64,000 nt of DNA. It comes from Lachnospiraceae bacterium (GTDB taxonomy: Bacteria > Bacillota > Clostridia > Lachnospirales > Lachnospiraceae). The DNA is taken from assembly GCA_022647575.1 (NCBI GenBank), contig JALCKY010000001.1, positions 1 to 64,000 on the forward strand, written 5' to 3'. The notes beneath the pieces are model-generated. The model saw only the letters and a program-made list of their open reading frames with translations, searched no databases and had not been told where the DNA came from. Below, piece by piece: positions 19,424-53,184 of the stretch; within the stretch, counting starts at the first letter, position 1, and every line of letters begins with the position of its first letter. The translations under genes were made by a program, and so were the position numbers.

Positions 19424-19487
19424 GAACCACGGGGACGGGGGTGGTGGTTCCGTTCCGCAGGAACCACCACCCCCGTCCCCGTGGTTC
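19424..19487. repeat. REP-like palindromic pair, inverted arrangement
   Basis: Two 27-base units (19424-19450 and 19461-19487), each bounded by GAACCAC and GTGGTTC around a GC-rich core containing ACGGGGACGGGG or its complement. They face each other across a 10-base spacer and can form one long hairpin. The same unit recurs near 38628, 48079 and 52733. Confidence 0.9.
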
Positions 19488-19498
19488 TTATCGGAGGA

Positions 19499-19527
19499 TT
19501 GCCTGCCGGAAGAAACAATGCTATAAT
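19499..19527 (+). promoter_or_regulatory. Promoter for ilvB
   Basis: TTGCCT (19499-19504), 17 bases, TATAAT (19522-19527) with an extended TGC. Confidence 0.65.
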
Positions 19528-19565
19528 GTATTTTTCAGGAAACAATCACAGACAGGAGAACAAAT

Positions 19566-21185
19566 ATGACAGGAGCGGAAGCTTTTGCAAAATGCCTCGA
19601 AAAAGAAGGCGTTGAGGTTATTTTCGGATATCCGGGTGCGGTGATCTGCCCGTTTTTTGATGCTGTCCTTGATACGAAAATAAGAACGATCCTGGTCCGG
19701 CAGGAACAGAATGCTGCCCATGAAGCTTCCGGGTATGCACGGATTTCCGGAAAACCCGGCGTCGCCGTTGCAACCTCCGGCCCCGGGGCCATCAACCTGA
19801 TGACAGGGATCGCGACTGCTTTTGCAGATTCGGTTCCTCTTGTCTGCATCACGGGTCAGGTCGATTCCAGCCTGATGGGGACAGACGGATTCCAGGAAGC
19901 TGACGTGGCAGGGGCTGTCGAGTCTTTTGTCAAATACAGCTATATCGTAAGCGATCCAAATGACATCCCGGAAATCGTAAAAGAAGCTTTTTATATTGCT
20001 TCGAGCGGAAGAAAAGGTCCGGTCCTGATCGACCTGCCTTTCAACATGCAGACGAAATCCATTGAAAAGTTTGTCTATCCGGAAGAAGTGAATCTCCGGA
20101 CTTATAAACCGACGGTGACCGGACATTCCGTCCAGATCAAAAAAGTCATCAAGGAGCTGGAAAGTGCCAAAAAGCCTCTGATTCTGGCAGGCGGCGGCGT
20201 CCATCTCTCGGATGCGGTCGGGGATGTGCGCGAATTTGTGGAAAAGAGAAAGATCCCGATCGTTTCCACGATGATGGGACTCGGCGTCATGCCGACCGAA
20301 GATCCGCTTTATTTCGGCATGGTCGGCAACAACGGACAGCAGTGCGCCAATCTTGCCATGAAGGATGCCGACATGATCATCATGGTCGGAGCCCGCGTGG
20401 CAGACCGGACGATCCGTGACCCGAACCTCATTTCGGAAAATAAGATCCTCGTCCACATCGATATCGATCCGGCTGAAATCGGAAAGAATGCCGGGCCCAC
20501 GATTCCGATCGTCGGGGACATCAGTCACATTTTCAGGGAATTCAATAAGGAAAAGCCAATCGGCGACTACAGCGAATGGACGGAACAGCTTGCCGAAAAG
20601 CGGGCGGAAGAGATCCTGCGCCGCATGGAAAGAAAGGCTGCTGAGAAGATTGACCCCAGAAGTTTTATCCGCACCCTGTCTCTTGCCATGAAAGACGATG
20701 CCATTTATGCGGCAGACGTCGGACAGAACCAGCTCTGGTCCTGCGCCAACTACGTCATCCGGAAGGGACGCTTCATGACTTCCGGAGGAATGGGAACCAT
20801 GGGATATGCACTCCCGGCTGCCATCGGCGCAAAGACTGCCCAGCCTTCCAAACAGGTGGTTGCGGTCTGCGGCGACGGAGGCTTCCAGATGAACATGATG
20901 GAACTGGCCACCGCGCAGCAGTATAAAATTCCAGTCAAGCTTGTCGTGCTGAGGAACAATACACTGGGTCTTGTCAGGCAGTATCAGCATACCCATTATC
21001 ACGACCGCTATGCCGTCACGACGCTGGAGGGCGGACCGGACCTGAGCCATCTTGCGGAAGCTTATGATATGGATTATCTGCGGCTGGAAAAGACTGACGA
21101 CACGGACGCAATTCTGGAAAATTTCCTGAAGGATAAGAAATCCGTGATCCTGGAAGTTATCATCGACCCGGATCTGTGGGCATAA
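19566..21185 (+). CDS. ilvB: Acetolactate synthase large subunit
   Basis: Thiamine-diphosphate enzyme that condenses two pyruvates, or pyruvate with 2-ketobutyrate, at the first common step of valine, leucine and isoleucine synthesis. It is 539 residues. The catalytic Glu region is VRQEQNAAHEASGYARISG, the FAD-domain centre is ADMIIMVGARVADRT, and the ThDP-Mg motif runs GDGGFQMNMMELATAQQYKIP with NNTLGLVRQYQ. The C-terminal tail is shorter than in many IlvB proteins. AGGAG precedes the ATG. The regulatory subunit gene begins 11 bases after its stop. Confidence 0.95.
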   Translation: MTGAEAFAKCLEKEGVEVIFGYPGAVICPFFDAVLDTKIRTILVRQEQNAAHEASGYARISGKPGVAVATSGPGAINLMTGIATAFADSVPLVCITGQVDSSLMGTDGFQEADVAGAVESFVKYSYIVSDPNDIPEIVKEAFYIASSGRKGPVLIDLPFNMQTKSIEKFVYPEEVNLRTYKPTVTGHSVQIKKVIKELESAKKPLILAGGGVHLSDAVGDVREFVEKRKIPIVSTMMGLGVMPTEDPLYFGMVGNNGQQCANLAMKDADMIIMVGARVADRTIRDPNLISENKILVHIDIDPAEIGKNAGPTIPIVGDISHIFREFNKEKPIGDYSEWTEQLAEKRAEEILRRMERKAAEKIDPRSFIRTLSLAMKDDAIYAADVGQNQLWSCANYVIRKGRFMTSGGMGTMGYALPAAIGAKTAQPSKQVVAVCGDGGFQMNMMELATAQQYKIPVKLVVLRNNTLGLVRQYQHTHYHDRYAVTTLEGGPDLSHLAEAYDMDYLRLEKTDDTDAILENFLKDKKSVILEVIIDPDLWA

Positions 21186-21196
21186 GGAGGACGAAA

Positions 21197-21679
21197 ATGA
21201 AGAGAATTTATTCGGTACTGGTTGAAAACCGCGCCGGTGTCCTCTGCAAGGTTGCCGGGCTGTTCTGGAGAAGATGCTTCAATATCGATTCCCTGGCCGT
21301 CGGCGAGACGGATGATCCGAAAGTCTCCAACATGATCATCGTCAGTTCCGGAGACGGACGGACGCTGGAACAGATCGAGAAGCAGCTCAATAAAAAACTC
21401 GATGTCGTGAAGGTCAAAACCTTCTCGCAGGAGGATTCCGTTTCCCGCGAACTCATGATGATCAAGGTAAAATATACCCGTGACAACCGCAGGGACATCA
21501 TCGAGAACTGCCAGCTCATGGGAGCCCAGGTCATTGATCTTTCCAAAACCATGATGACGATCCAGATCTGCGATACGCCGGAAAGAGTGCAGATTTTCCT
21601 GAACACGATGAAGAGCATCCGGATTGCGGAAATCACGCGCACCGGCATGCTGGCGCTGACGAAATGCACCGACGGCTGA
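21197..21679 (+). CDS. ilvN: Acetolactate synthase regulatory subunit, copy 1
   Basis: A 160-residue ACT-domain protein that binds the large subunit and gives feedback control, usually by valine. The ACT domain at 1-75 starts MKRIYSVLVENRAGVLCKVAGLF and includes FNIDSLAVGETDD; the C-terminal domain includes VQIFLNTMKSIRIAEITRTG. ATG 21197 has an AGGAGG site. A second, diverged copy follows at 21780 behind its own promoter. Confidence 0.92.
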   Translation: MKRIYSVLVENRAGVLCKVAGLFWRRCFNIDSLAVGETDDPKVSNMIIVSSGDGRTLEQIEKQLNKKLDVVKVKTFSQEDSVSRELMMIKVKYTRDNRRDIIENCQLMGAQVIDLSKTMMTIQICDTPERVQIFLNTMKSIRIAEITRTGMLALTKCTDG

Positions 21680-21684
21680 CAGGA

Positions 21685-21703
21685 TTGTACTTATTTGGTA
21701 CAA
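21685..21703. promoter_or_regulatory. Inverted repeat upstream of the second regulatory subunit
   Basis: TTGTAC and GTACAA flank a 7-base centre (19 bases in all), 9 bases upstream of the -35 box of the next promoter. It could be an operator, but no regulator can be named. Confidence 0.35.
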
Positions 21704-21712
21704 CCGCTTCCA

Positions 21713-21741
21713 TTGACAAAGAAAACCAAGGTTGCTAAAAT
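21713..21741 (+). promoter_or_regulatory. Promoter for ilvH-ilvC
   Basis: A consensus TTGACA (21713-21718), 17 bases, TAAAAT (21736-21741). An AGAAAGGAG site precedes ATG 21780. Confidence 0.75.
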
Positions 21742-21779
21742 ATATGGCAATCTCGACTTAAGAAAGGAGCTTCCGGAAA

Positions 21780-22280
21780 ATGGACCAGATCGTGCTTTCC
21801 ATCCTGGTAGATAACGTGCCGGGCATCCTGACCAGGATTTCCGGTCTTTTCGCCAGACGCGGCTACAATATCGAAAGCATTACGGCCGGCGTCACGGCAG
21901 ATCCGAGAATCACGAGGATCACGATAGTCAGCAGAGGAGATGATCTGGTGCTCCATCAGATCATGGCCCAGCTTGAAAAACAGGTGGACGTCAAGGACAT
22001 CAAAGTCCTCGATCCGAACTATTCGGTCGTCCGGGAACTTCTGCTGGTCAAGGTCATGGCGGATGAAACGAACCGCAGCAAGCTGATTGAGATCGCGAAC
22101 ATTTTCCGCGCCAAGATCGTCGATGTCGAAACAGACTGCATCATCATCGAACTGACGGGAGCTCAGGCGAAGCTGGAAGCATTCCTCGAAATGCTGACGG
22201 GCTACGAGATTGCGGAACTTGCCAGGACGGGACTTGCGGGTCTCTCCAGAGGCACTAAAGACGTGAAATACTTTGATTAA
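21780..22280 (+). CDS. ilvH: Acetolactate synthase regulatory subunit, copy 2
   Basis: A 166-residue second ACT-type small subunit: MDQIVLSILVDNVPGILTRISGLFARRGYNIESITAG, the classic IlvN/IlvH ACT motif, with FEMLTGYEIAELARTGLAGL-like sequence at the C-terminus. It is closer to the textbook IlvH pattern than copy 1. Only one large subunit lies nearby. The two may form alternative holoenzymes with different feedback, or one may be an inactive partner. It is separated from copy 1 by its own promoter and continues into ilvC after 39 bases. The symbol marks the family, not a proven difference from copy 1. Confidence 0.92.
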   Translation: MDQIVLSILVDNVPGILTRISGLFARRGYNIESITAGVTADPRITRITIVSRGDDLVLHQIMAQLEKQVDVKDIKVLDPNYSVVRELLLVKVMADETNRSKLIEIANIFRAKIVDVETDCIIIELTGAQAKLEAFLEMLTGYEIAELARTGLAGLSRGTKDVKYFD

Positions 22281-22319
22281 GTTAACATATCAACCATTCA
22301 CAGAGAGGAAGTAAAAAAA

Positions 22320-23351
22320 ATGGCACAGGAAGCAAAAATCTATTATCAGGAAGACTGCAATATGTCACTGCTGGAAGGTAAGAAAATTGCCATTATCGGT
22401 TACGGCAGCCAGGGACACGCACATGCGCTGAACCTTAAAGATTCCGGGTGTGATGTTATTGTTGGACTCTATGAGGGCTCCAAGTCCTGGAAAAAAGCGG
22501 AAGAGCAGGGTCTGAAAGTCTACACGGCAGCGGAAGCGGCTAAGCAGGCTGACATCATCATGATCCTGATCAACGATGAACTTCAGTCCGCTATGTATAA
22601 GAAGGATATCGCACCGAACCTGAAAGAGGGCGATATGCTGATGTTCGCACACGGATTCAATATCCATTACAAACAGATCATCCCGCCGGCGAATGTCGAT
22701 GTCACGATGATCGCTCCCAAGGGACCGGGCCACACTGTCCGTTCCGAATATCAGGCAGGCAAGGGCGTTCCGATGCTGGTCGCTGTTGAGCAGGATTACA
22801 CCGGCAAGGCTCTGGACCGCGCACTGGCTTATTCCCTGGCTATCGGCGGAGCACGTGCAGGCGTCCTTGAGACAACGTTCCGTACCGAGACAGAAACAGA
22901 CCTCTTCGGCGAGCAGGCTGTCCTCTGCGGCGGTGTCTGCAAACTGATGCAGACAGGCTTCGAAGTTCTCTGCGAAGCAGGATACGATCCGAGAAACGCT
23001 TATTTCGAATGCATCCATGAAATGAAGCTGATCGTTGACCTGATCTATCAGTCAGGCTTTGCAGGCATGAGATATTCCATTTCCAACACGGCTGAGTACG
23101 GCGATTATATTACTGGCCCGAAGATCATTACTCCGGAGACGAAGCAGGCTATGAAGAAAGTCCTTTCGGATATCCAGGACGGCACATTTGCACATGACTT
23201 CCTGACCGATATGAGCGCAGAAGGCGGACAGCAGGTTCACTTCAAGATGATGAGACAGAGAGCAGCAGAGCATCCGTCAGAAGTTGTCGGCGCTGAGATC
23301 CGCAAGCTTTACAGCTGGAACAAAGAAGAGGATAAGCTGATCAACAACTGA
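22320..23351 (+). CDS. ilvC: Ketol-acid reductoisomerase, class I
   Basis: Second branched-chain step: isomerises and reduces acetolactate to dihydroxyisovalerate. It is 343 residues, the short class I form with a single knotted C-terminal domain. [17 protein letters not shown] binds the nucleotide; Mg ligands lie in [15 protein letters not shown] and [13 protein letters not shown]. The cofactor loop reads GLYEGSKSW (50-57), with Tyr-Glu where an Arg often contacts the NADPH phosphate, while Ser54 and Ser56 are kept. Co-transcribed with copy 2 of the regulatory subunit. A DUF4190 gene follows 30 bases later. Confidence 0.95.
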
Positions 23352-23380
23352 TTCTTTCTTTCCAAAAAGGAGGTACTCAC

Positions 23381-24085
23381 ATGGCAGACAATGAATTTCC
23401 GCAGGGAACCCAGCAGAATGCAGATTCATCCGTTCAGCCGGGAACGCAGCCGAACGTACAGCCGACTGCACAGCCGAACGTGCAGTCAAATGCACAGACG
23501 GGCTTTCAGCAGAATGCTGCACAGAATTTTCAGCAGGGCGCAGCTCCGAACCCGCAGCAGGGTGCCCAGCAGGCGAATCCTTTTGAAAACAGGCAGCAGG
23601 GTCCTTACTATCAGGGCAGTGCCTATCAGAACCCGAACGTCAACAATTATCAGTCGGGACATCATGATGACAGCGCAGCACAGACGGGCTATCAGCAGCA
23701 GAGAGCCGCTTACGGATACAATCCCGACAACGGACAGACCGGCAAAGGCCCCAGCCAGACGCTTGCGATTATCGGCATGATTACCGGTATCTGCTCCATT
23801 CTTTTCTGCTGTGTTGCACCGCTGGCAATCATTCTCGGCATTGCTGCACTTATCTGCTCCATTTTTGCCATGAAGAAAGGCCAGAATAAGGGCATGTGGC
23901 TGACAGGCATCATTACCGGTGCCATCGGTCTTCTGATTTCTCTTATTGTGCTGATACTGGTCATTGTGGTAATCGGCGATGCCGGTTCCGGACTCATGGG
24001 CTTGATCAGGCATTACATGAACGGCGGCGGAAGCACGATTCCGGACGGAGACCTGAGCAACATTATTCAGCAGTTTACAAAGTAA
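23381..24085 (+). CDS. DUF4190 membrane protein with Gln/Asn-rich N-terminus
   Basis: A 234-residue protein. The first 125 residues are low complexity, rich in Gln, Asn, Ala and Pro, with repeated QPNVQ/QQNA/QQG units. They are followed by two transmembrane helices (about 127-165 and 175-205) around [17 protein letters not shown], the DUF4190 pattern, and a short outside tail. The disordered N-terminus probably faces the cytoplasm. Function is unknown. AAAAGGAGG precedes the ATG. It lies between ilvC and leuC, but nothing in it suggests a role in amino acid synthesis. Confidence 0.8.
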
Positions 24086-24106
24086 AATAACAAAAGAAGC
24101 AGAAAG

Positions 24107-24134
24107 GGGACGGACGTCTGTCCGCCCTCTTTTT
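24107..24134 (+). terminator. Probable terminator after the DUF4190 gene
   Basis: GGG(A)CGGAC pairs with GTCCGCCC across a short loop with one bulged A, then CTCTTTTT. It lies 21 bases after the stop and just ahead of leuC. Confidence 0.6.
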
Positions 24135-24149
24135 ACAGGGAGAACAAGC

Positions 24150-25415
24150 ATGGGAATGACAATGTCTCAGAAAATACTGGCGGATCATGCCGGTGCCGCT
24201 TCCGTTAAGGCCGGAGAACTGATTGAAGCAGATCTTGACCTGGTTCTGGGAAACGACATCACTTCGCCGGTTGCGATTCACGAAATGGACAGGATGAAGA
24301 ACCGCAGGATTTTCAGTCAGGATAAGATTGCCCTTGTCATGGATCACTTTATCCCGAATAAGGACATCAAATCGGCGGAGCACTGCAAATGCGTAAGGAA
24401 TTTTGCATCGGAATTCGGAATCACGAATTATTTCGATGTCGGTCAGATGGGAATTGAGCATGCACTGCTTCCGGAAAAAGGACTGGTCGTGGCAGGAAAC
24501 CTCTGCATAGGGGCAGACAGCCATACCTGCACTTACGGAGCACTGGGTGCATTTTCCACAGGCGTCGGCTCGACCGATATGGCTGCCGGAATGGCTTCCG
24601 GAAAAGCCTGGTTCAAGGTCCCGTCCGCCATCCGGGTATTGGTAACAGGAAAAAAGAGAAAATACGTGACCGGCAAGGACCTGATCCTGCATCTCATCGG
24701 AGAGATCGGCGTCGACGGAGCCCTTTACCAGTCGCTGGAATTTACCGGTGACGGAATTGCCGATCTTTCGATGGACGACCGCTTCACGATCGCAAACATG
24801 GCCATTGAGGCCGGCGCAAAAAACGGAATTTTCCCGGTGGATGAACAGACGCTGGCTTATATGAAGGAGCATGCCTCCACCTGCGGAAAGACCTACGAAG
24901 CCGATCCGGATGCCGAGTATACCCGTACGGTGACAATCGATCTGGCTCAGCTCGAACCGACGGTCAGCTTCCCGCACCTTCCGTCGAATGCCAGAAAAAT
25001 ATCCGAAATCACGGAAGCGATTCCGATGGACCAGGCAGTGATCGGTTCCTGCACCAACGGACGGATCAGCGACCTTCGTGCCGCTGCCGAAATCCTGAAA
25101 GGACGCCATGTCAAAAAGGGACTTCGCTGCATCGTGATTCCGGCAACGCAGGACATTTATCTTCAGGCAATGGAAGAGGGGCTTCTGAAAATCTTCATCG
25201 AAGCGGGCGCTGTCGTTTCCACCCCGACATGCGGACCCTGCCTGGGCGGATATATGGGAATCCTTGCTGCCGGAGAGAGATGCATTTCCACGACGAACCG
25301 CAATTTCATCGGCAGGATGGGTGATGTGACATCGGAAGTCTATCTGGCCAGTCCCTATGTGGCGGCGGCATCCGCAGTCACAGGGAAAATTTCTTCACCG
25401 GAGGAACTGCAATGA
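24150..25415 (+). CDS. leuC: 3-isopropylmalate dehydratase large subunit
   Basis: Aconitase-family [4Fe-4S] enzyme that interconverts 2- and 3-isopropylmalate in leucine synthesis. The 421-residue length fits the shorter LeuC/HacA-like type. Cluster ligands are in [15 protein letters not shown] and [14 protein letters not shown]; the substrate loop [21 protein letters not shown] is complete. GGGAGAACAAG precedes the ATG. It shares ATGA with leuD. leuB is not in the window; leuA is 3 kb downstream as a separate unit. Confidence 0.95.
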
Positions 25416-25900
25416 ACGCACAGGGAAAAGTATTCAAATACGGCGACAACATTGATACGGATGTCATCATTCCGGCACGCTACCTGAATTCGTCCGATCC
25501 GGCGGAGCTGGCGACGCACTGCATGGAAGATATCGACAAGACCTTCACGGAGAGGGTGCATCAGGGCGACATCATCGTCGGCCTCAAGAATTTCGGATGC
25601 GGATCTTCCAGAGAGCATGCACCGATCGCCATCAAGGCAGCCGGAGTTTCCTGTGTGATTGCGGAAACCTTCGCCAGGATTTTCTTCCGCAATTCCATCA
25701 ACATCGGCCTTCCGATTCTGGAATGTCCGGAAGCGGCAGCGGAGATTCAGGACGGTGACACCGTCTGTGTGGATTTCAGCACGGGAGTGATTCGGGATCT
25801 GACACAGAATAAGGAATACAAGGCACAGCCGTTCCCGCCGTTCATGCAGAAGATCATTTCCGCTGGCGGATTGATAAATTATGTAAACCAAAATGAATGA
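25412..25900 (+). CDS. leuD: 3-isopropylmalate dehydratase small subunit
   Basis: Swivel-domain partner of LeuC, 162 residues. It begins with [21 protein letters not shown] and contains the substrate-recognition motif [19 protein letters not shown]. The length matches the short LeuD type that pairs with 420-residue LeuC. Start and leuC stop overlap by 4 bases. A strong terminator follows. Confidence 0.95.
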
Positions 25901-25905
25901 TCAGG

Positions 25906-25933
25906 AAAGGCCGGACGAAAATCCGGCCTTTTT
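25906..25933 (+). terminator. Intrinsic terminator of leuCD
   Basis: AAAGGCCGGA pairs with TCCGGCCTTT around a short A-rich loop, with a T run at the end, 6 bases after the leuD stop. Confidence 0.9.
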
Positions 25934-25937
25934 CATA

Positions 25938-25966
25938 TTGCCTATAAAACGGAAATAGCGTATAAT
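25938..25966 (+). promoter_or_regulatory. Promoter for tRNA-Pro
   Basis: TTGCCT (25938-25943), 17 bases, TATAAT (25961-25966). The tRNA begins 12 bases after the -10 box. Confidence 0.65.
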
Positions 25967-25977
25967 AACATTTCGCA

Positions 25978-26051
25978 CGGGGTATGGCGTAGCTTGGTAG
26001 CGCGCACGGCTGGGGGCCGTGAGGTCGCGAGTTCAAATCTCGCTGCCCCGA
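25978..26051 (+). tRNA. tRNA-Pro (anticodon GGG)
   Basis: A 74-base cloverleaf. The acceptor arm CGGGGTA pairs with TGCCCCG (one G-T wobble). The anticodon stem CACGG/CCGTG holds the loop CTGGGGG, giving anticodon GGG for codons CCC and CCU. The T loop is GTTCAAATC. The discriminator base is A and no CCA is encoded. A T run follows directly. Confidence 0.93.
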
Positions 26052-26129
26052 TTTTTTTATGCATTTCCCACACCGGAGGGAACGCGGTCATCCTGCATCC
26101 GTTCCGGGGAAAGAAACTCTCAAAGATTC

Positions 26130-27565: not shown

Positions 27566-27572
27566 TCGGCTG

Positions 27573-27629
27573 CAGTGTCAGACGGATTATTCAGTGACAG
27601 ACGGATTTTGCAGTAACTGACGGATATTG
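27573..27629. repeat. Three exact-period 19-bp tandem repeats
   Basis: Units at 27573-27591, 27592-27610 and 27611-27629 share CAGT, GACGGAT and flanking positions, 16 of 19 matching between neighbours. They end 16 bases before the -35 box of the leuA promoter, where an operator or enhancer-like site would sit. Confidence 0.8.
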
Positions 27630-27644
27630 ACTTTACAGCCGGGG

Positions 27645-27673
27645 TTGACATTTCAGACATCATTTGGTAAAGT
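27645..27673 (+). promoter_or_regulatory. Promoter for the T-box/leuA transcript
   Basis: A perfect TTGACA (27645-27650), 17 bases, TAAAGT (27668-27673). Transcription should begin near 27680, just ahead of the T-box stem I. Confidence 0.7.
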
Positions 27674-27695
27674 AATCCATAACTTCATAAAAAAA

Positions 27696-27968
27696 GCAAT
27701 GACAGGGAACAGTAGATGCATGCCGGAGCGCAGAGAGCTGCCGTACGGTGTAAGGCAGCGGAAAGCATTCATTGAACTCGCCCTCGAGCTTCTGCCTGAA
27801 AATTCCAGTAGGTGCAGACGGCATCCCGCCGTTACAGGGAAGGATATAAGATCTTTGATCCGTATCCGACAAGCGCACGGATTTTCCGTGAAGTAGAGTG
27901 GTACCGCGCAGGACATCTGTCCTTCGTCTCTTACAGATAACGTGTAGGATAGACGGAGGGCTTTTTTA
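27696..27968 (+). promoter_or_regulatory. Leucine T-box leader (tRNA-sensing riboswitch)
   Basis: The T-box core AGTAGAGTGGTACCGCG lies at 27892-27908. Stem I carries AGTAGATG on its 5' side, the AG-bulge AGAGAGC, an apical GGTGTAAGG, and a specifier region TTGAACTCG. By position after GAA the specifier codon is CTC (Leu, read by tRNA with anticodon GAG). The terminator is CCTTCGTCT (27921-27929) with AGACGGAGG (27951-27959) and a T run. Uncharged tRNA-Leu would stabilise the antiterminator and allow leuA to be made. This leader and the tandem repeats fill the gap between the MATE gene and leuA. Confidence 0.92.
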
Positions 27969-28052
27969 TTTTCACAGGTCTTCCGCACAGACGGAAAATT
28001 TTTCCGTACAGGGCACACGCGGGAAATGGACCCGCAGGAAAGGAGATTCATC

Positions 28053-38627: not shown

Positions 38628-38702
38628 GAACCACCACCCCCGTCCCGGTGGTTCCCAGAACCACTACCCCCGTCCCGGTGGTTCGGTGGTGCGGTGGTTC
38701 GG
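38628..38702. repeat. REP-like palindromic pair, direct arrangement
   Basis: Two 27-base units in the same orientation (38628-38654 and 38658-38684) with a 3-base spacer. A partial unit GGTGGTGCGGTGGTTCGG follows. Ends are GAACCAC and GTGGTTC, the core is CCCCCGTCCC. It fills almost the whole gap between pheT and the phosphatase. Confidence 0.9.
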
Positions 38703-43929: not shown

Positions 43930-43959
43930 ATTGTAGCACACGAAGCGGTCTGCATACAA
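43930..43959 (-). promoter_or_regulatory. Promoter for aroF-tyrA-aroA
   Basis: On the minus strand TTGTAT (complement of 43954-43959), 18 bases, TACAAT (complement of 43930-43935), about 50 bases upstream of the aroF ATG. Confidence 0.6.
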
Positions 43960-43997
43960 CCCTTTAATACTTTAAATCACTAAATCGCCCGGATTCA

Positions 43998-44026
43998 TTG
44001 AAATAGGGAAGCAGTTATGTTAAGAT
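43998..44026 (+). promoter_or_regulatory. Promoter for metF-metH
   Basis: TTGAAA (43998-44003), 17 bases, TAAGAT (44021-44026), 36 bases upstream of the metF ATG. Confidence 0.6.
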
Positions 44027-44061
44027 GCGGGTATTGAAAAAGTCTGAAAGAGTGCAGAAAT

Positions 44062-44916: not shown

Positions 44917-44925
44917 GGAAATGAA

Positions 44926-45594: not shown

Positions 45595-45609
45595 AAGACA
45601 GGAGAAACC

Positions 45610-48075
45610 ATGAAGATACTGCAATACCTGAAAGAACACCGGATCATCAATGACGGAGGAATGGGCACCCTGCTTCAGGCCAACGGTCTTAAGCCGGGGG
45701 AGCTGCCGGAAACCTGGAATGTCCTCCATCCGGATGTTCTTGTGAAGCTTCATAAAGAATATCTTTCAGCCGGGGCGAATATCCTCTCGACCAACACATT
45801 CGGTGCCAACCGGATCAAATATCCGCCGGACGGGAATTATGACCTTCGCCGTCTGATTGCTGCCGCCGTGGAAAATGCGCGGCAGGCCCGGGAAGAATTT
45901 GCAGATGAATTCCGTGCCGTAAACGGCTGCGATCCGGAACCGTGCTTCATCGGTTTCGATATCGGCCCGACCGGCAAGCTCCTCAAGCCGCTCGGAGACC
46001 TTGACTTCGAAGAGGCCGTCCGGGCCTTCGGGGAAGCGGCAAAAGCCGGTGCGGAGGCAGGCGCCGATTTCATTTTCATCGAGACGATGAGTGACACCTA
46101 CGAAGTCAAGGCGGCTGTACTGGGCGCAAAGGAGAATACGGACCTTCCGGTCTTTGCCACGATGACATTTCTGGAGAACGGAAAACTGCTGACCGGCGCC
46201 GATGTCGATTCCGCAGTTGCCCTTCTTGAGGGTCTCCGCGTCGATGCCCTCGGGCTGAACTGCGGCCTCGGGCCTGCCCAGATGGAAAAGACGGCGCGCC
46301 GTCTGATTGAAGTCTCGTCGACCCCTGTCATCATCACGCCGAATGCCGGCATGCCGAAAACCGTCAACGGCTCCACGTCCTACGAACTTGACGCGGATAC
46401 ATTTGCAAGGGAAATGCTTCCGATTGCGGAAGCGGGAGCCTGCGTGCTCGGCGGCTGCTGCGGAACGACTCCGGAGCATATCCGGAAAATGAAGGCACTG
46501 GTGAAAGACCTGGATTACCGCTTCCCGGAAAATAAAAACCGCACAGTCGTTTCTTCCTACGGGGAGGCGGTCCTGATCGGACCCAAACCGGTTCTGATCG
46601 GGGAGCGCATCAATCCGACCGGGAAGAAGAAACTGAAGGAAGCTCTTCAGGAAGGACGCTTCGACTATATTCTTTCAGAAGCCGTAAAAGAACAGGAGAA
46701 CGGGGCGGACGTGCTGGACGTCAACGTCGGACTTCCGGGGATCGACGAACCGGCGATGATGGAAAAAACTGTCCGTGAAATACAGGCCGTAACCGACCTT
46801 CCGCTGCAGATTGATACATCAGACATCAAGGCCATGGAAAGAGCCCTGCGTGCCTATAACGGCAAAGCGCTGATCAATTCCGTAAACGGAAAAGAAGAGT
46901 GCATGAATGCGGTCTTTCCTATGGCTGCCAAATACGGAGGCGTCATCGTTGCCCTTCCGCTCGATGAAAACGGCATCCCGGATTCTGCGGACGCCAGAAT
47001 TGAGATTGCGGAGAAGATATTCAGAAAGGCAGAAAGCTATGGGATCCGCAGAAATGAACTTCTCATCGACGGTCTTGTCATGACGGTCAGTGCGGTGAGC
47101 CAGGGAGCCCTGACCACGCTTTCAACCGTAAGGAAAATTAAAAGTAAGCTTCACGGAAAAAGCATCCTGGGCGTTTCCAATGTTTCCTTCGGTCTCCCGC
47201 AGCGCGAAATCATCAATTCCGCCTTCTTTACGATGGCTCTTCACGACGGACTGAATGCTGCCATCATGAACCCGAACAATGAAGCCATGATGCGTGCGTA
47301 CCGCAGCTTCCTTGCGCTGTCAGACCTGGATCCTCAGTGCGCCGGGTACATTTCCGTATACGGAGGCACTGCACAGGAAGGTCTCGGGGAAACCAGAAAA
47401 ACCGGGGACTTGAAGACGACGGGGGACATTTCCGCAGACGGGGCAGAAAAAGGCGGATCATCTCTTTCCGCGGATATTCTTCACGGCATGAGGGACGCCG
47501 CAGCAGAAGCTGCCGCCGAAGAACTGAAAACCCGTGAACCGCTCGAAATCATCAGCGGCGAACTCATTCCCGCCCTTAATCAGGTTGGGCAGGACTTTGA
47601 AAAGGGCAGAGCCTTTCTTCCCCAGCTCCTGATGAGCGCGGAAGCCGCCAAGGCGGCCTTTGACGCGATCAAGGGAAAGATTGCCAAAAAGGACAGCACC
47701 GGCGCGGCAAAAGGCACGGTCATCCTGGCGACAGTCCGCGGCGACGTCCATGACATCGGAAAGAATATCGTGAAGGTTCTCATGGAAAGCTATAACTACG
47801 AAGTAATTGACATGGGAAAAGATGTTCCTCCGGAAGACATCCTGGAAATGACCCTGAAGCGCCATGTGCGCCTCATCGGTCTTTCCGCCCTGATGACGAC
47901 AACGATTCCGTCGATGGAAGCGACCATCCGGCTGATCCATGAAAAGGCTCCGTTTGCCAAAGTGGCTGTCGGAGGCGCCGTGATGACGAAGGAATACGCG
48001 GACGCAATCCATGCGGACAGCTACAGCCGCGACGCGATGGGAACCGTCCGCTATGCGGACGGACTGTTCGCCTGA
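45610..48075 (+). CDS. metH: Cobalamin-dependent methionine synthase, without activation domain
   Basis: Transfers the methyl group of methyl-THF to homocysteine through cobalamin. It is 821 residues with three modules. The homocysteine domain (about 1-300) has zinc ligands in GLNCGLGP and LGGCCGTTPEHI. The pterin-binding domain (about 325-590) has LIGERINPTGKKKLKEAL and LDVNVGLPGIDEP. The B12 cap and binding domain (about 640-821) has DVHDIGKNIVKVLM with the cobalt-ligating His714. The usual C-terminal activation domain is missing and is encoded separately upstream. AGGAG precedes the ATG. A REP-like pair follows the stop. Confidence 0.96.
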   Translation: MKILQYLKEHRIINDGGMGTLLQANGLKPGELPETWNVLHPDVLVKLHKEYLSAGANILSTNTFGANRIKYPPDGNYDLRRLIAAAVENARQAREEFADEFRAVNGCDPEPCFIGFDIGPTGKLLKPLGDLDFEEAVRAFGEAAKAGAEAGADFIFIETMSDTYEVKAAVLGAKENTDLPVFATMTFLENGKLLTGADVDSAVALLEGLRVDALGLNCGLGPAQMEKTARRLIEVSSTPVIITPNAGMPKTVNGSTSYELDADTFAREMLPIAEAGACVLGGCCGTTPEHIRKMKALVKDLDYRFPENKNRTVVSSYGEAVLIGPKPVLIGERINPTGKKKLKEALQEGRFDYILSEAVKEQENGADVLDVNVGLPGIDEPAMMEKTVREIQAVTDLPLQIDTSDIKAMERALRAYNGKALINSVNGKEECMNAVFPMAAKYGGVIVALPLDENGIPDSADARIEIAEKIFRKAESYGIRRNELLIDGLVMTVSAVSQGALTTLSTVRKIKSKLHGKSILGVSNVSFGLPQREIINSAFFTMALHDGLNAAIMNPNNEAMMRAYRSFLALSDLDPQCAGYISVYGGTAQEGLGETRKTGDLKTTGDISADGAEKGGSSLSADILHGMRDAAAEAAAEELKTREPLEIISGELIPALNQVGQDFEKGRAFLPQLLMSAEAAKAAFDAIKGKIAKKDSTGAAKGTVILATVRGDVHDIGKNIVKVLMESYNYEVIDMGKDVPPEDILEMTLKRHVRLIGLSALMTTTIPSMEATIRLIHEKAPFAKVAVGGAVMTKEYADAIHADSYSRDAMGTVRYADGLFA

Positions 48076-48078
48076 AAG

Positions 48079-48137
48079 GAACCGCGGGGACGGGGGTGGT
48101 GGTTCCGAAAGAACCACCACCCCCGTCCCCGCGGTTC
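48079..48137. repeat. REP-like palindromic pair, inverted arrangement
   Basis: Units at 48079-48105 and 48111-48137 in opposite orientation with a 5-base spacer; ends are GAACCGC/GAACCAC and GTGGTTC/GCGGTTC. The pair could act as the metH transcript end, although the following TTTGTC is a poor T tract. Confidence 0.9.
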
Positions 48138-48160
48138 TTTGTCTAAATTCCCCAAACGTC

Positions 48161-48189
48161 TTGAATAATCTGCATATTTTTAGTAAAAT
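48161..48189 (+). promoter_or_regulatory. Promoter for the EF-G paralogue
   Basis: TTGAAT (48161-48166), 17 bases, TAAAAT (48184-48189), 30 bases upstream of ATG 48219. Confidence 0.6.
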
Positions 48190-48218
48190 ACTACTATCAT
48201 ATGTTTTGGAGGGCAATC

Positions 48219-50312
48219 ATGGACGTTTACAGAACAGACAGGATTCGCAACGTTGTATTGCTTGGACACGGAGGTTCGGGAAAGACGACCCTGACGGAAG
48301 CCATGGCGTATTTATCCGGTATTACGAGCCGTCTCGGAAATGTGACAGACGGGTCAACCGTGAGTGACTTTGATAAAGAGGAGATCAAGAGAAAGTTCTC
48401 AATTACAACTTCGCTCGTTCCGATCGAATGGTCGAAGAATAAGATCAACATCCTGGATACACCGGGGTACTTCGATTTTGTAGGAGAAGTGGAAGAGGCA
48501 GCCGGTGTTGCCGATGCCGCCATCATCTGCGTATCCGGCAAGGACGGCGTCCAGGTCGGAACCCAGAAAGCATGGAATCTCTGCGAAGAAAGAAAACTTC
48601 CGCGCATGATTTTCGTGACCGGAATGGACAATGATGAAGTTTCCTACCGTGAAGTCGTCGAGAAGCTCGGCGAACTGTACGGGAAGAGGATTGCACCTCT
48701 TCATATGCCGATCCGTGAGGACGGAAAATTCACCGGCTATGTCAACATCGTCAAGAAAGCCGGCCGCAAGTACATCGCCAAGGGCGGCAAGGAAGAATGC
48801 CCGGTCCCGGATTACTGCGAAGAATACATGAACAAGTACCACGATGCCCTGATTGAATCCGTCGCCGAAACTTCTGACGAATTCATGGACCGCTTCTTTA
48901 ACGGCGAAGAATTCTCCACAACGGAAGTTTCCGCAGCCCTGGCATCCAACATCGCGGACTGCTCCATCGTCCCGGTCTGCATGGGATCTCCGGTCAACCT
49001 TCAGGGCGTATCGAACCTGCTGGATGACATTATCGAGTACTTCCCGGATCCGTCCAAGAGAGTCTGCTCCGGAATCCAGCAGAAGACGAATGAGATCTTC
49101 GAGGCGAACTATGATTTCCAGAAACAGAAATCCGCTTATGTCTGGAAGACCATGGTCGACCCGTTCATCGGCAAATACAACCTGATCAAGGTCTGCTCCG
49201 GTGCACTGAAGCCGGATGATACGCTTTATGATGTCGACAAGGATGAAGACCAGCGTCTCGGAAAGCTTTACGTCCTGACGGGAAATAAACCGGTCGAAGT
49301 GGCTGAATTATTTGCCGGAGATATCGGAGCGCTCGGAAAGCTCGGGGATGTGACAACGGGAGATTCCCTTTCCACAAAGGCTTCCCCGATCATTTATCCG
49401 AAGGCAATCCTTTCCACGCCGTATACGTACAAGCGCTACAAGGCCGTCAACAAGGGCGATGAAGACAAGATTTCCCAGGCACTTACCAAGATGGGCGCCG
49501 AGGATCTTACCTTCAAGGTCGTTCAGGATTCCGCCAACCACCAGAGCCTCATTTACGGCATGGGAGAGCAGCATCTGGACATCATCGCAAGCAAGCTGAA
49601 AGAAAGATACAAGATTGAGATCGAGCTGACGGAGCCGAAGGTTGCGTTCCGCGAGACCATCAAGAAGAATTCGGATGTTGAAGGAAAATACAAGAAGCAG
49701 ACAGGCGGACACGGCCAGTACGGCGATGTCAAGATGCGCTTCAGCCCGAGCGGCGATATGGAGAAACCGTATGAATTCGTGGTTTCCGTCGTCGGCGGCA
49801 CGGTTCCGAAGAACTATTATCCTGCAGTCGACAAGGGACTTGCCGAGTGCGTCCTGAAAGGACCGCTGGCAGCATATCCGGTCGTCGGCGTGAAAGCGGA
49901 TCTCTACGACGGATCCTATCATCCGGTCGATTCTTCCGAACAGGCATTCAAGACGGCAACCCATATGGCGTTCAAGGATGGTTTCCTGAAAGCGGGACCG
50001 GTCCTTCTTGAGCCGATCATGAACCTGAAAGTCGTCGTTGACGACAAGTATACAGGCGATGTCATGGGAGACCTCAACAAGAGAAGAGGACGTGTCCTCG
50101 GAATGAATCCGGGAAAGAACGGCACGACCGTCGTGGAAGCCGATATTCCGCAGACTGAGCTTTACGGATACGGCACGACGCTCCGCTCCATGACCGGAGG
50201 CTCAGGAGACTTCTCCTTCACCTTCAGCCGCTATGAACAGGCACCGTCGGATGTCCAGGAGAAACAGATCAAGGCAAGGGCCGACAAGCTTGAGGAAGGT
50301 GCGGAAGACTGA
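48219..50312 (+). CDS. EF-G-like translation GTPase (paralogue)
   Basis: A 697-residue protein with the five-domain EF-G layout. ATG 48219 has a TTGGAGGG site; ATG 48201 upstream has none. The P-loop is GHGGSGKTTLTEAM (Lys22) and the switch II motif is DTPGYFDFVGEV. The G4 motif that should read NKxD is TGMD at 134-137, so the guanine-contacting Asn and Lys are lost. Domain IV/V sequence (KKQTGGHGQYGDV, GSYHPVDSSEQAFK, RRGRVLGMNPG) is conserved. It is probably the FusA2-type paralogue of unknown role rather than the main translocase. Confidence 0.9.
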   Translation: MDVYRTDRIRNVVLLGHGGSGKTTLTEAMAYLSGITSRLGNVTDGSTVSDFDKEEIKRKFSITTSLVPIEWSKNKINILDTPGYFDFVGEVEEAAGVADAAIICVSGKDGVQVGTQKAWNLCEERKLPRMIFVTGMDNDEVSYREVVEKLGELYGKRIAPLHMPIREDGKFTGYVNIVKKAGRKYIAKGGKEECPVPDYCEEYMNKYHDALIESVAETSDEFMDRFFNGEEFSTTEVSAALASNIADCSIVPVCMGSPVNLQGVSNLLDDIIEYFPDPSKRVCSGIQQKTNEIFEANYDFQKQKSAYVWKTMVDPFIGKYNLIKVCSGALKPDDTLYDVDKDEDQRLGKLYVLTGNKPVEVAELFAGDIGALGKLGDVTTGDSLSTKASPIIYPKAILSTPYTYKRYKAVNKGDEDKISQALTKMGAEDLTFKVVQDSANHQSLIYGMGEQHLDIIASKLKERYKIEIELTEPKVAFRETIKKNSDVEGKYKKQTGGHGQYGDVKMRFSPSGDMEKPYEFVVSVVGGTVPKNYYPAVDKGLAECVLKGPLAAYPVVGVKADLYDGSYHPVDSSEQAFKTATHMAFKDGFLKAGPVLLEPIMNLKVVVDDKYTGDVMGDLNKRRGRVLGMNPGKNGTTVVEADIPQTELYGYGTTLRSMTGGSGDFSFTFSRYEQAPSDVQEKQIKARADKLEEGAED

Positions 50313-50339
50313 TTCAGAACAGAATAAAGATTATGATCC

Positions 50340-50372
50340 GGTCGGGCTCACTTCAATGAGCCCGACCTTTCC
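50340..50372. terminator. Convergent terminator between EF-G-like and lipoprotein genes
   Basis: GGTCGGGCTCA pairs with TGAGCCCGACC around CTTCAA and is followed on the plus strand by TTTCC. It lies 28 bases after the EF-G-like stop and overlaps the last codons of the lipoprotein gene on the other strand. Confidence 0.8.
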
Positions 50373-50491
50373 TTTGCAGGAACTTCTTCGTGATCGACTG
50401 AAACACCTGAAAGCGGCTCCGCACTTTTACCGCAGGATGCAAGCGATAAAAGATACAGAGCCGCTGTCATTGCAAATATCAGCTTTTTCAT
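50348..50491 (-). CDS. Small lipoprotein, 47 residues
   Basis: A short gene directly after prs on the minus strand. It starts one base after the prs stop, with AAGGG just upstream. It reads MKKLIFAMTAALYLLSLASC then GKSAEPLSG and a charged tail ending KERSGSLK. This is a lipoprotein signal peptide (basic start, hydrophobic core, lipobox LASC) with only about 27 mature residues. The last codons form part of a terminator hairpin. I do not recognise the mature part. It could be a truncated remnant of a longer lipoprotein. Confidence 0.55.
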   Translation of the reverse strand: MKKLIFAMTAALYLLSLASCGKSAEPLSGVSVDHEEVPAKERSGSLK

Positions 50492-50492
50492 T

Positions 50493-51707
50493 TTACCCTT
50501 CAGGATCGACAATTTCCGGTTCGATTTCATCCGTTTCCGAGGTGAGCTGCTTTTTGGAAAGAATCTTTGTGATCTTGTGGGTCGTGGACTTGATCTTGTC
50601 AACCGAAACATCATGATTCAGCGTGTCGATGATGCTGGCCAGATACTTGTACATATTTGCCGTTTCATAATACGGCTTTTTCAGAAGTTCCGGCGGACGG
50701 TAAGCCAGGTTCGTGGTGATCAGCTTATCAAGGAAGCCCTTCTCATAGTATTCGTCAAATTTATCGAAGCCGTCTGTAAAGAGTCCGAAGGTCGTGCAGA
50801 CAAAGGTTCGCTTTGCCCCCATTTCCTTGACCTGGCGGCAGACATCCAGCATGGAGCCGCCGGAGGAGATCATGTCATCGATGACGACGACATCCTTGCC
50901 CTTGACGGAATCGCCGAGGAATTCATGGGCAACGATCGGATTGCGTCCGTTGACGATCTTGGAATAGTCGCGTCTCTTATAGAACATGCCCATATCGACG
51001 CCGAGGATATTCGAGAAATAAACCGCCCGCGGCATAGCGCCTTCATCCGGGCTGATGACCATCAGGTGCTTGTTGTCGAGCTTTAAGTCCGGGACAGCCT
51101 TGATCAGGGCCCGCAGGAACTGGTAGGTAGGCATGAAATTGTCGAAGCCGATGAGCGGAACGGAATTCATGACGCGCGGATCGTGTGCATCAAAGGTGAT
51201 GATGTTGGAGACGCCGTAATCGGAAAGCTCCTTGAGCCCGAGAGCGCAGTCCAGGGATTCCCTTCCCGAGCGCTTATGCTGCCTGCTTTCATAAAGGAAG
51301 GGCATAATGACATTGATGCGGTGGGCTTTTCCGTTTGCTGCGGAGATGATTCTTTTCAGATCCTGGAAATGATTGTCCGGGGACATATGATTGATACGGC
51401 CGCAGACTTTATAGGTCATAGAATAGTTGGTGACATCGGCAAGAATGTAGAGATCGGTTCCGCGGACGGATTCGTTGATCTTAGCTTTCCCTTCGCCGGT
51501 TCCGTAGCGGCTGCATTTGGCATCCAGTATGTAGGAATTGTCCAGATAGCCCGGGACGGTCAGAAGATCGCGGTCTCTTGCGGCATTTCCTTTTCTTAAT
51601 TTGACAATGTTTGCATCCACTTCACGTGACATTTCCGCGGCTCCTTCGAGCGCGGCAATTTTAAGCGGTGCGACCGGAAGTATTTTCGGCTGTACGATTG
51701 AAGACAT
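50493..51707 (-). CDS. prs: Ribose-phosphate pyrophosphokinase
   Basis: Makes PRPP from ribose 5-phosphate and ATP, for nucleotides, histidine and tryptophan. It is 404 residues, about 90 longer than the classic enzyme, from extra sequence at both ends, as in some Bacillota. The PRPP loop VVVIDDMISSGGSMLDV is clear, and VISPDEGAMPRAVYF with FYKRRDYS mark the catalytic half. Its ATG is on the minus strand at 51705-51707. It is transcribed divergently from the DUF512 gene; a 47-residue lipoprotein gene follows it. Confidence 0.92.
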   Translation of the reverse strand: MSSIVQPKILPVAPLKIAALEGAAEMSREVDANIVKLRKGNAARDRDLLTVPGYLDNSYILDAKCSRYGTGEGKAKINESVRGTDLYILADVTNYSMTYKVCGRINHMSPDNHFQDLKRIISAANGKAHRINVIMPFLYESRQHKRSGRESLDCALGLKELSDYGVSNIITFDAHDPRVMNSVPLIGFDNFMPTYQFLRALIKAVPDLKLDNKHLMVISPDEGAMPRAVYFSNILGVDMGMFYKRRDYSKIVNGRNPIVAHEFLGDSVKGKDVVVIDDMISSGGSMLDVCRQVKEMGAKRTFVCTTFGLFTDGFDKFDEYYEKGFLDKLITTNLAYRPPELLKKPYYETANMYKYLASIIDTLNHDVSVDKIKSTTHKITKILSKKQLTSETDEIEPEIVDPEG

Positions 51708-51738
51708 TTTTTACCCCCTTGAACATTGGTTCATACCG

Positions 51739-51767
51739 ATTATAGCATTCGGGAAATAGGCGTTCAA
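51739..51767 (-). promoter_or_regulatory. Promoter for prs
   Basis: On the minus strand TTGAAC (complement of 51762-51767), 17 bases, TATAAT (complement of 51739-51744). Its -35 lies only 4 bases from that of the divergent promoter. Confidence 0.7.
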
Positions 51768-51771
51768 GCTG

Positions 51772-51800
51772 TTTACAAAAATCGTGAAAATTGGTATCAT
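51772..51800 (+). promoter_or_regulatory. Promoter for the DUF512-der-plsY operon
   Basis: TTTACA (51772-51777), 17 bases, TATCAT (51795-51800). The expected transcription start coincides with ATG 51808 and no ribosome site is present, so the mRNA may be leaderless. Confidence 0.5.
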
Positions 51801-51807
51801 AATGAGT

Positions 51808-53184
51808 ATGCAGCATGCAGAACATCGGATTAAAACCGTAATAAAAGGCGGAATCGCAGAAGAGATGGGAGTGGAGCCGGGAATGATCCTCATTTCCGTC
51901 AACGGCACTCCCGTACAGGACGTACTCGATTACCGCTTTCTGATGTATGATTCCCATGTCGATGTTACGATCCGTGACTTTGACGGAAATGATACCGTCC
52001 TTGAGATCGACAAGGATCCTGACGAAGATTTCGGAGTAGAGTTTGAAACGCCTTTCATGGACGATTACAGAAGGTGCGCGAACCGCTGCATTTTCTGCTT
52101 CATCGATCAGATGCCGAAGGGAATGAGGCGGACGCTTTATTTCAAGGACGACGATGCCAGGCTTTCCTTCCTGCAGGGAAATTACGTGACGCTTACCAAC
52201 ATGTCGGACGACGATGTGGAACGGATCTGCCGGCTGAAAATGGAACCGATCAATATTTCCGTGCATACAGCGGATCCGGAGCTCAGATGCCGCATGCTCG
52301 GGAATCCGAAAGCCGGAGAGTCTCTCAAAAAGCTTGATGTCTTCAAGGAAAAAGGCATCGTCATGAACGGGCAGATTGTTTTGTGCAAAGGCTGGAATGA
52401 CGGTGAGAAACTGGACGAGACGCTGGAAGCTCTGGAAAAGTACCGTCCGGAAATGCAGAGCGTTTCCGTCGTTCCGGTAGGCCTCACCAGATACCGGCAG
52501 GGGCTCACGGAACTGGAAGCTTTCGGGCGCGAAGATGCGGAAAAGGTCATCGCACAGATTGAACGGCATGCCCATTTTGTCTATGCATCCGACGAATGGT
52601 TCCTGCTGGCCGGGAAGGAAATCCCGGAAGCGGATTATTATAACGGCTATCCGCAGATTGAGAACGGAGTCGGAATGCTGCGTTCCCTCTACGATGAGGT
52701 CATCGACAGCATCGGAACCAGAAACAGAACCAGAACCACCACCCCCGTCCCCCTGGTTCCAAGAACCACTACCCCCGTCCCGGTGGTTCCTCCGCGGCGG
52801 CCGGTCGTCAGCGTGGCCTGCGGAATGCTTTTTGCTCCGTTCATGGAAAAGATTGCCGGGGAAATACCGGATTACGATATCCGTATCTATGCCATCCGGA
52901 ATGAGTTCTTCGGGGAGGGCGTGACCGTATCCGGACTGCTGACGGGCCGGGATCTCCTGAAGCAGCTTCAGGGGAAGGAACTGGGTGAGAGACTTCTGAT
53001 CACCGTCAATATGCTGCGGAGCGGCGAAACCGTTCTGCTCGATGATATCAAGGTAAGCGAACTGGAAGAGAAACTGAAGGTGCCGGTTGTCGTGACAGGA
53101 CAGAGCGGCTATGATCTCGCGGATGCCATCAGAGGGGAAACCGCCGGTCAGGACTTTACGGGAAGACAGGTATACGAAACATGA
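51808..53184 (+). CDS. PDZ/radical-SAM-like DUF512 protein carrying an in-frame repeat insertion
   Basis: A 458-residue protein. An N-terminal PDZ-like domain (IKGGIAEEMGVEPGMILISVNG) leads to a radical-SAM-type cluster motif, Cys90, Cys94 and Cys97 in CANRCIFCFID, and then the DUF512 region (LTRYRQGLTELEAFG). The C-terminal part (RRPVVSVACGMLFAPFMEKIA) is conserved. Between residues about 303 and 329 it carries two copies of the window's palindromic repeat read as RTTTPVPLVP and RTTTPVPVVP, in a spot where relatives have a short linker. ATG 51808 is preferred by homology. Its stop overlaps der. Function is unknown; the neighbours are ribosome assembly (der) and phospholipid synthesis (plsY). 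Confidence 0.9.
   Translation: MQHAEHRIKTVIKGGIAEEMGVEPGMILISVNGTPVQDVLDYRFLMYDSHVDVTIRDFDGNDTVLEIDKDPDEDFGVEFETPFMDDYRRCANRCIFCFIDQMPKGMRRTLYFKDDDARLSFLQGNYVTLTNMSDDDVERICRLKMEPINISVHTADPELRCRMLGNPKAGESLKKLDVFKEKGIVMNGQIVLCKGWNDGEKLDETLEALEKYRPEMQSVSVVPVGLTRYRQGLTELEAFGREDAEKVIAQIERHAHFVYASDEWFLLAGKEIPEADYYNGYPQIENGVGMLRSLYDEVIDSIGTRNRTRTTTPVPLVPRTTTPVPVVPPRRPVVSVACGMLFAPFMEKIAGEIPDYDIRIYAIRNEFFGEGVTVSGLLTGRDLLKQLQGKELGERLLITVNMLRSGETVLLDDIKVSELEEKLKVPVVVTGQSGYDLADAIRGETAGQDFTGRQVYET
52733..52789. repeat. REP-like palindromic pair inside the DUF512 gene
   Basis: Direct units at 52733-52759 and 52763-52789 with a 3-base spacer. The 30-base period keeps the host frame open. Degenerate GAACCAG copies precede them from 52714. 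Confidence 0.9.

Follow-up and report, generated by a model that had tools for sequence, protein, structure and literature searches.

Eight units of a 27-bp repeat in the window

The window, a stretch of 64,000 nucleotides (nt) from the start of contig JALCKY010000001.1 of a Lachnospiraceae bacterium (assembly GCA_022647575.1), carries eight copies of a 27-base-pair (bp) palindromic unit that a preliminary description had likened to repetitive extragenic palindromic (REP) elements. Here we describe the family to which these units belong and its association with a transposase gene elsewhere in the genome. On re-reading the sequence, all eight units were located where they had been reported (Table 1), as inverted pairs at 19424/19461 and 48079/48111 and as direct pairs with 3-base spacing at 38628/38658 and 52733/52763. 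The common ends GAACCAC and GTGGTTC ascribed to them hold for seven of the eight, the unit at 52733-52759 having CTGGTTC as its 3' end, and the pattern GAACCRC-N8..20-GYGGTTC matched seven units versus a chance expectation of 0.02. A stop codon lies upstream within about 70 bases at three loci, as described, at distances of 66, 4 and 3 bp; the fourth pair (52733/52763) is not intergenic and lies within a DUF512 radical-SAM reading frame.

Another hairpin of terminator-like type, with an A-tract and a T-tract, occupies 19382-19415, just upstream of the 19424 dimer, so that the repeat there sits behind an existing terminator-like element. The window also has a T-box leader (27690-27934, 118.7 bits), a feature pointing to Bacillota. 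We rejected a known RNA family as the identity of the unit, given that at Rfam gathering scores the window yielded a T-box and tRNA only.

Table 1. Repeat units and adjoining features of the window
Feature	Position	Strand	Description
Unit 1	19424..19450	-	left arm of inverted dimer, 10-nt spacer; perfect consensus; dimer forms one hairpin when folded
Unit 2	19461..19487	+	right arm of the 19424 dimer; perfect consensus
Unit 3	38628..38654	+	first in direct pair, 3-nt spacing, 4 bp past the PheT stop codon; 1 mismatch
Unit 4	38658..38684	+	second in the 38628 direct pair; 2 mismatches
Partial unit fragment GGTGG..GCGGTGGTTCGG	38685..38702	+	behind unit 4; by direct reading
Unit 5	48079..48105	-	left arm of inverted dimer, 5-nt spacer, 3 bp past a stop codon; GCGGTTC variant
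Unit 6	48111..48137	+	right arm of the 48079 dimer; GCGGTTC variant like its partner
GAACC-like fragments	52715..52732	+	immediately ahead of unit 7, within the open reading frame; by direct reading
Unit 7	52733..52759	+	first in direct pair, in frame within a protein gene; ends CTGGTTC
Unit 8	52763..52789	+	second in the in-frame direct pair
DUF512 / Radical_SAM_2 / PDZ_6 reading frame	51784..53184	+	units 7 and 8 in a variable-length linker (RTTTPVPLVPRTTTPVPVVP)

A dispersed family with fixed borders

The genome (G000) comprises 3,026,614 bases (3.03 Mb) in 11 contigs. Scanning it with the consensus unit gave 63 matches with at most 3 mismatches and 0 for the reversed control, which bore out the earlier suggestion of a dispersed family with consistent borders. 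A re-scan of the retrieved stretches at up to 5 mismatches brought the total to 64 units, the extra one having 4 mismatches; units with more than 3 mismatches outside these stretches would escape the count. The 64 units fall in 38 clusters and form 26 neighbouring pairs (15 inverted, 11 direct), with 13 units standing singly. Positions 9-19 of the unit, 11 nt in all, show zero variation in 64/64 units, and of the 65 genomic occurrences of the core ACCCCCGTCCC all but one fall inside units. Variation falls at positions 2, 3, 6-8, 20-22, 25 and 26.

For comparison we used one genome per species, giving 79 relatives of which 41 belong to the same genus. None of the 41 same-genus genomes, many of them fragmented, gave a match to the unit with 3 or fewer mismatches, and elsewhere among the relatives it was present in G045 only (another genus of the same family), as 4 copies with 2-3 mismatches. 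Within G000 the clusters are unevenly spread over contigs C1-C10: 14 neighbour gaps are shorter than 10 kb versus 4.3 expected (p 0.0002), and a 520-kb stretch from C1:80 kb to C1:600 kb is empty (p 0.007), with lengths assumed for three contigs. Such a spread, together with the invariant 11-nt core, would suit sites bound by a protein that organises the chromosome or acts in replication. We consider this explanation extremely unlikely, as absence of the unit from all 41 same-genus genomes is unlike a core function and mobile repeats, too, would be expected to cluster near their source gene or between neighbours.

In four direct pairs (38628, 52733, C1:642146 and C3:359968) position 8 is T in the downstream unit and C in the upstream one, as if an ordered pair had been copied jointly; the direct pair at C4:92392 has the reversed order. 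Possible further mobile genes were sought between unit pairs 700-850 bp apart, at C1:642205-642902, C1:672340-673123 and C3:363365-364165 (the last as DNA only). The first encloses a formyltransferase-type open reading frame (ORF), PurN by position and sequence, and the second a gene with the look, by eye only, of a TetR-type regulator; both were dismissed as candidates.

Anatomy of the unit and pairing within dimers

On its G-rich strand the unit consists of a 7-bp stem, GAACCAC/GTGGTTC, enclosing a 13-nt loop in which the invariant core GGGACGGGGGT is positioned. The loop starts with GGGGACGG in 50 of the 64 units and with CGGGACGG or AGGGACGG in the remainder, its first base being C in 13 units and A in one. 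All seven end pairs are intact in 35 of the 64 units. Thirteen of the 64 units have G at position 20; in those that retain C at position 8, the two bases could pair. Folding of a lone unit as DNA gave -5.1 kcal/mol (z -1.8), and singletons and direct pairs in general fold weakly. Both inverted dimers of the window fold into a single long hairpin, with -42.1 and -40.9 kcal/mol as DNA and -69.9 and -66.9 kcal/mol as RNA.

The change at 48079/48137 had been put forward as suggesting that hairpin pairing is kept by selection. It is compensated only across the partner units and breaks end pairing inside each of them. Throughout the 64 units, within-unit compensation was seen in 0 of 36 variant end-pair cells, which rules it out as a sign of hairpin selection. 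Inverted partners differ at 6 positions in total versus 22.7 with permuted partners (p 5e-5), and direct partners at 20 versus 20.4 (p 0.52). Since inverted partners share their variants and units are not compensated internally, the pairing that is kept is that between dimer partners; it could be maintained by selection, joint copying or hairpin-templated correction. Copying of whole dimers is argued against by the spacers, which differ among loci.

Shared variants with locus-specific spacers would fit a second arm templated in place, and thus a multiplication that involves no transposase, in which inverted partners arise when the template is switched at short palindromes, direct partners by slippage or recombination, and dispersal is due to rare chance. 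This would account for the dimers. It would not account for 38 clusters that are dispersed yet share their borders, or for a Y1 gene bracketed by the unit, and we judge it very unlikely as a full explanation. Transposase-free copying probably adds to the explanation that we prefer, mobilisation by a transposase, instead of replacing it.

A Y1 transposase gene bracketed by the unit

A gene of the Y1 type, as in REP-associated tyrosine transposases (RAYTs), flanked by the unit had been named as the partner to look for. One was detected in the genome, outside the window, bracketed by three perfect copies. With an E threshold of 0.01 it is the only Y1_Tnp match detected genome-wide (C2:309570-309902, E 1e-14); it scores 54.2 bits against a cut-off of 23, and forms a 254-amino-acid ORF on the minus strand (L041:4175-4939). 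Two direct units lie beyond its 3' end and one, in the opposite orientation, beyond its 5' end, all with 0 mismatches. The HUH histidines and the Y-x3-NP motif (H60, H62, Y120, N124, P125) are invariant among 15 aligned homologs, of which four match HTH_28 and three HTH_23 at E up to 1. Judged by its sequence, the transposase looks like a TIRYT-like protein with a C-terminal helix-turn-helix (HTH)-like end.

Hairpins beside related RAYT genes

RAYT homologs were found in 17 of the 79 relatives and, in an order-wide sample of 373 genomes, in 73 (with G000 included). Over the order, the hairpins beside homologous RAYT genes differ in stem but have a loop motif of similar type, GGGGAC or GGGGTC. 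The motif GGGGACGG recurs in hairpins flanking the RAYT genes of relatives, with stems that differ by genome, for example TGATACAA/TTGTATCA in G051 and TGGACATT/AATGTCCA in G060. For 26 copies at 10 loci, selected for carrying the motif, the mean stem score was 4.35 versus 2.34 when right flanks were swapped between loci, a value reached in 0 of 2000 permutations. We then applied a hairpin criterion, set after viewing the first loci, of GGGG[AT][CG] within 700 bp of the match and a stem score of at least 6. Hairpins of this kind were present at 11 of 29 RAYT loci in the first set, at 1 of 16 IS200-type loci and at 0 of 8 DUF512 loci; for these controls 30 loci had been added, 21 had entered as IS200-type with five dropped as short, and 8 of 11 DUF512 relatives had entered.

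The 26 held-out RAYT loci were new loci among the best-scoring order-wide matches, and several share a genus and are not independent. By the above criterion, thirteen of them carry the motif at the loop start of a hairpin, six on both sides, versus 0, 0 and 2 of 26 for three control motifs matched in G+C content and 6 for an A-rich one. Per motif occurrence the rate was 26/84 versus 0/37, 0/37, 2/34 and, for the A-rich motif, 7/216. Of the 45 copies viewed in G051 (40 in 16 retrieved stretches, 3 in L102 and 2 beside the RAYT gene), most have one stem and loop, and 21, both RAYT-adjacent ones included, share an identical 8-bp stem. At L075 (G016) each flank of the RAYT gene carries a 65-nt inverted repeat built around GGGGACAG, itself near-palindromic.

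Copies of GGGGACGGTTC number at least 10 in 17 of the 79 relatives, with a reversed control of 0-2; the maximum, 397 copies, is in a same-genus genome where the reversed control is 0. Copy number is greater in genomes with a RAYT gene, both in the same genus (7 versus 34 genomes, one-sided p 0.03) and across all 79 relatives (17 versus 62, p 0.0007), although the genomes compared share ancestry and the correspondence is loose. Several same-genus genomes, among them G011, G029, G020 and G030, have 60-173 copies of GGGGACGGTTC and neither a RAYT nor a Y1_Tnp match; the enzyme may have been lost there or may lie in an assembly gap, or another mobiliser may act.

Proposed mobilisation of the family by the Y1 transposase

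We favour, at a probability of roughly 0.78, a REP-like hairpin family that is mobilised now or was recently mobilised by the one Y1/HUH transposase of RAYT type, TIRYT-like, detected in this genome. Several observations weigh against this explanation. The transposase scores 72.9 bits with the NCBIfam REP-associated transposase model, under the cut-off of 80; its best solved relative, TnpA-REP 4er8, is weak (E 0.057; 0.0034 with a profile; nothing at 0.001), and both C-terminal matches, HTH_28 (E 0.0034) and HTH_23 (E 0.025), are below Pfam cut-offs. Hairpins of the kind sought were lacking at half of the held-out RAYT loci (13 of 26) and at 18 of the 29 in the first set. In G024 the RAYT gene is flanked by GGGGTCAG hairpins, and 9/9 dispersed copies viewed are of another kind. 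A RAYT match is absent in 10 of the 17 GGGGACGGTTC-rich relatives and present in 7. To these comes the missing compensation within units. What the sequences establish is the family with its borders, its association with the transposase gene, a similar architecture beside related RAYT genes, the gene contexts and the codon-phase bias; binding and cleavage by the transposase, mobility of the units and present activity are what we infer.

According to this explanation, the enzyme would bind the element as single-stranded DNA, reading the stem as a shape and the loop motif as a guide, cleave beside the element and rejoin it elsewhere. Copies would persist where they are least harmful, either just past stop codons or in a tolerated codon phase within genes, and inverted dimers, which form long hairpins, were indeed not seen within genes.

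Position relative to genes

We assigned gene context by means of a simple gene caller, based on codon usage and trained on 28 ORFs from the window. The 38 clusters comprise 23 in tandem, 5 in convergent and 0 in divergent context, with 10 within or overlapping ORFs. Intergenic copies lie at a median of 11 bp from the facing stop codon, and at 20 bp or less in 23 of 33 cases; one distance, 1158 bp, probably reflects a missed gene. This closeness to stop codons resembles that of REPs as described by Di Nocera, De Gregorio and Rocco (2013, PMC3733652). Clusters with inverted neighbours, 15 in all, are never inside an ORF, versus 10 of the 23 others (Fisher p 0.003). Three of the 10 ORF-associated clusters are at ORF edges, namely at the PurN C-terminus, at the EamA N-terminus and at C1:672314, the last of which is probably intergenic.

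A preference for gene ends, never between divergent genes, is also what would be seen if the units were RNA elements maintained by the host, i.e., hairpins in 3' untranslated regions that end transcription or protect mRNA, with the transposase as a bystander. The two inverted dimers of the window are very stable as RNA and are detected as terminator-like. At least 7 clusters, however, are in frame inside genes, singletons and direct pairs fold weakly, and the 19424 locus already has its own terminator-like hairpin and T-run just upstream (19382-19415). Host-maintained RNA elements would moreover leave unexplained both the association of gene and repeat and the architecture shared at related RAYT genes. 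We regard this account as unlikely, and an RNA role may be a side effect of retained copies.

Copies translated in frame

Leaving out C1:672314, nine loci are translated. They are the DUF512 protein, an EcfA1-EcfA2 fusion (which we take to be the identity of two ABC_tran domains), an aconitase-like protein, CobU, GalT, an ORF with a sub-threshold metallo-hydrolase match, a Thr-rich ORF with no Pfam match, the PurN C-terminal tail and the EamA N-terminus. One codon phase, giving GTTGTGVVVP or TTTPVPVV, is common to eight of the nine, with CobU as the exception. The chance of this bias is 0.00097 if the phase is named beforehand and about 0.003 allowing for post-hoc choice; without the two edge loci the count is 6/7, with about 0.007 and 0.02, respectively (post-hoc values and those for 6/7 by hand). 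The consensus unit contains no stop codon in any of its six frames. In-frame loci hold single and direct copies only, and inverted dimers were not seen inside genes.

At the GalT site the unit peptide is present in 0 of 11 aligned same-genus relatives, nine of which are shorter and two of which have an unrelated longer stretch. The two copies in the DUF512 protein fall in a linker whose length and sequence differ from one relative to another (11 compared, one of them badly aligned). The EcfA1/EcfA2-like ABC ATPase domains are fused in one ORF at L055:4053-5870, with two units in the linker, and are two separate genes in most of the genus. The idea that the element made the fusion is not supported, as G022 is also fused with a linker free of the unit peptide and G004 and G015 are fused by open-frame length. 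The Thr/Asp-rich low-complexity ORF at L044:15185-16180, without a Pfam match, has TTDTTDTTGTG repeats and one unit peptide just upstream of this tract.

A possible superfamily of loop-guided repeats

RAYT group 1 is the largest of the five groups with quoted sizes, and Quentin et al. (2018, PMC6006769) report no identifiable REPs for it. It is tempting to speculate, at a little under even odds, that RAYT group 1/TIRYT enzymes own an overlooked REP superfamily, combining a genome-private, freely evolving stem with a near-constant GGGGAC/GGGGTC guide at the loop start, and that in this genome proteins of metabolism and transport tolerate the stop-free unit, and perhaps even use it, as a peptide linker read in frame (GTTGTGVVVP or TTTPVPVV). 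Such a superfamily would have been overlooked because its tag is inside the palindrome and not beside it. If loop-guide hairpins are indeed the rule, the question of the substrate of group 1 enzymes becomes a direct oligonucleotide experiment, and repeats can be searched for by architecture instead of by sequence. Through the in-frame copies, several unrelated proteins carry natural insertions of a single defined peptide. Two aspects are new here: the loop-guide architecture, seen beside many of the order's related RAYT genes, and the in-frame copies with their bias in codon phase.

Comparison with known repeat systems

Searches of open-licence literature (titles and starts of abstracts) on RAYTs in Clostridia or Firmicutes, on TIRYT and on REPIN gave no paper describing the family, and among open-licence papers a search with the unit, the guide strings and GGGGWSAS gave only PMC3733652 as relevant by title. 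The earlier REP/RAYT reading stands as far as the dispersed family and the Y1/RAYT-type gene flanked by the unit are concerned; the plain REP label does not, as there is no GTAG tag and the motif is in the loop.

With classical GTAG REPs and REPINs (group 2/3 RAYTs) the family shares short palindromes, inverted dimers, positions near gene 3' ends and the flanking of a Y1 gene. It differs in having no GTAG beside the palindrome, where the flanks are variable (mostly G before, C or T after), and in a conserved motif placed in the 13-nt loop; a classical GTAG REP was thus rejected. The residues through which E. coli TnpA-REP contacts GTAG, as named in PMC6006769, have equivalents here that look different in pairwise alignment.

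The Rickettsia CGTC REPs RPE-4 and RPE-6 (PMC3733652) are similar in carrying CGTC, which lies here in the C-rich core strand, and in having in-frame copies in proteins. A CGTC REP was also rejected: CGTC is within a 13-nt loop on a 7-bp stem here, versus unpaired at the end with a stem of 8-9 bp and a loop of 4-5 nt. The unit flanks a transposase gene, whereas CGTC repeats are reported not to do so.

RAYT group 1, or TnpA subclass 2.1, is, according to PMC6006769, probably the same as TIRYT. The Y1 core, the Y-x3-NP motif and a long C-terminal part whose HTH similarity is below Pfam cut-offs liken the transposase to this subclass in its features. Subclass 2.1 genes are reported in PMC6006769 to have no REP-like sequences nearby, whereas REP-like hairpins flank many homologs here.

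The family also resembles TIRtrons, whose TIRYT repeats are given in PMC3733652 as long terminal inverted repeats (TIRs), mostly unrelated to REPs and only in some cases self-complementary, most but not all with the consensus motif GGGGWSAS. As in TIRtrons so described, there is a repeat-flanked Y1 gene with inverted copies on both sides and a motif with a run of G, and dispersed copies are moderately abundant as single units, dimers and clusters. The family's GGGGACGG fits GGGGWSAS at 7 of 8 positions, the first G missing in 14 of the 64 units, and exact GGGGWSAS forms such as GGGGACAG and GGGGTCAG lie beside homologs. In contrast to TIRtrons, the repeats here are short stem-loops with the motif opening the loop; away from the gene they occur mostly singly or as dimers, and some are read in frame within genes. 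We class the family, together with its TIRYT-like transposase, as a REP-like variant of the repeats that accompany TIRYTs.

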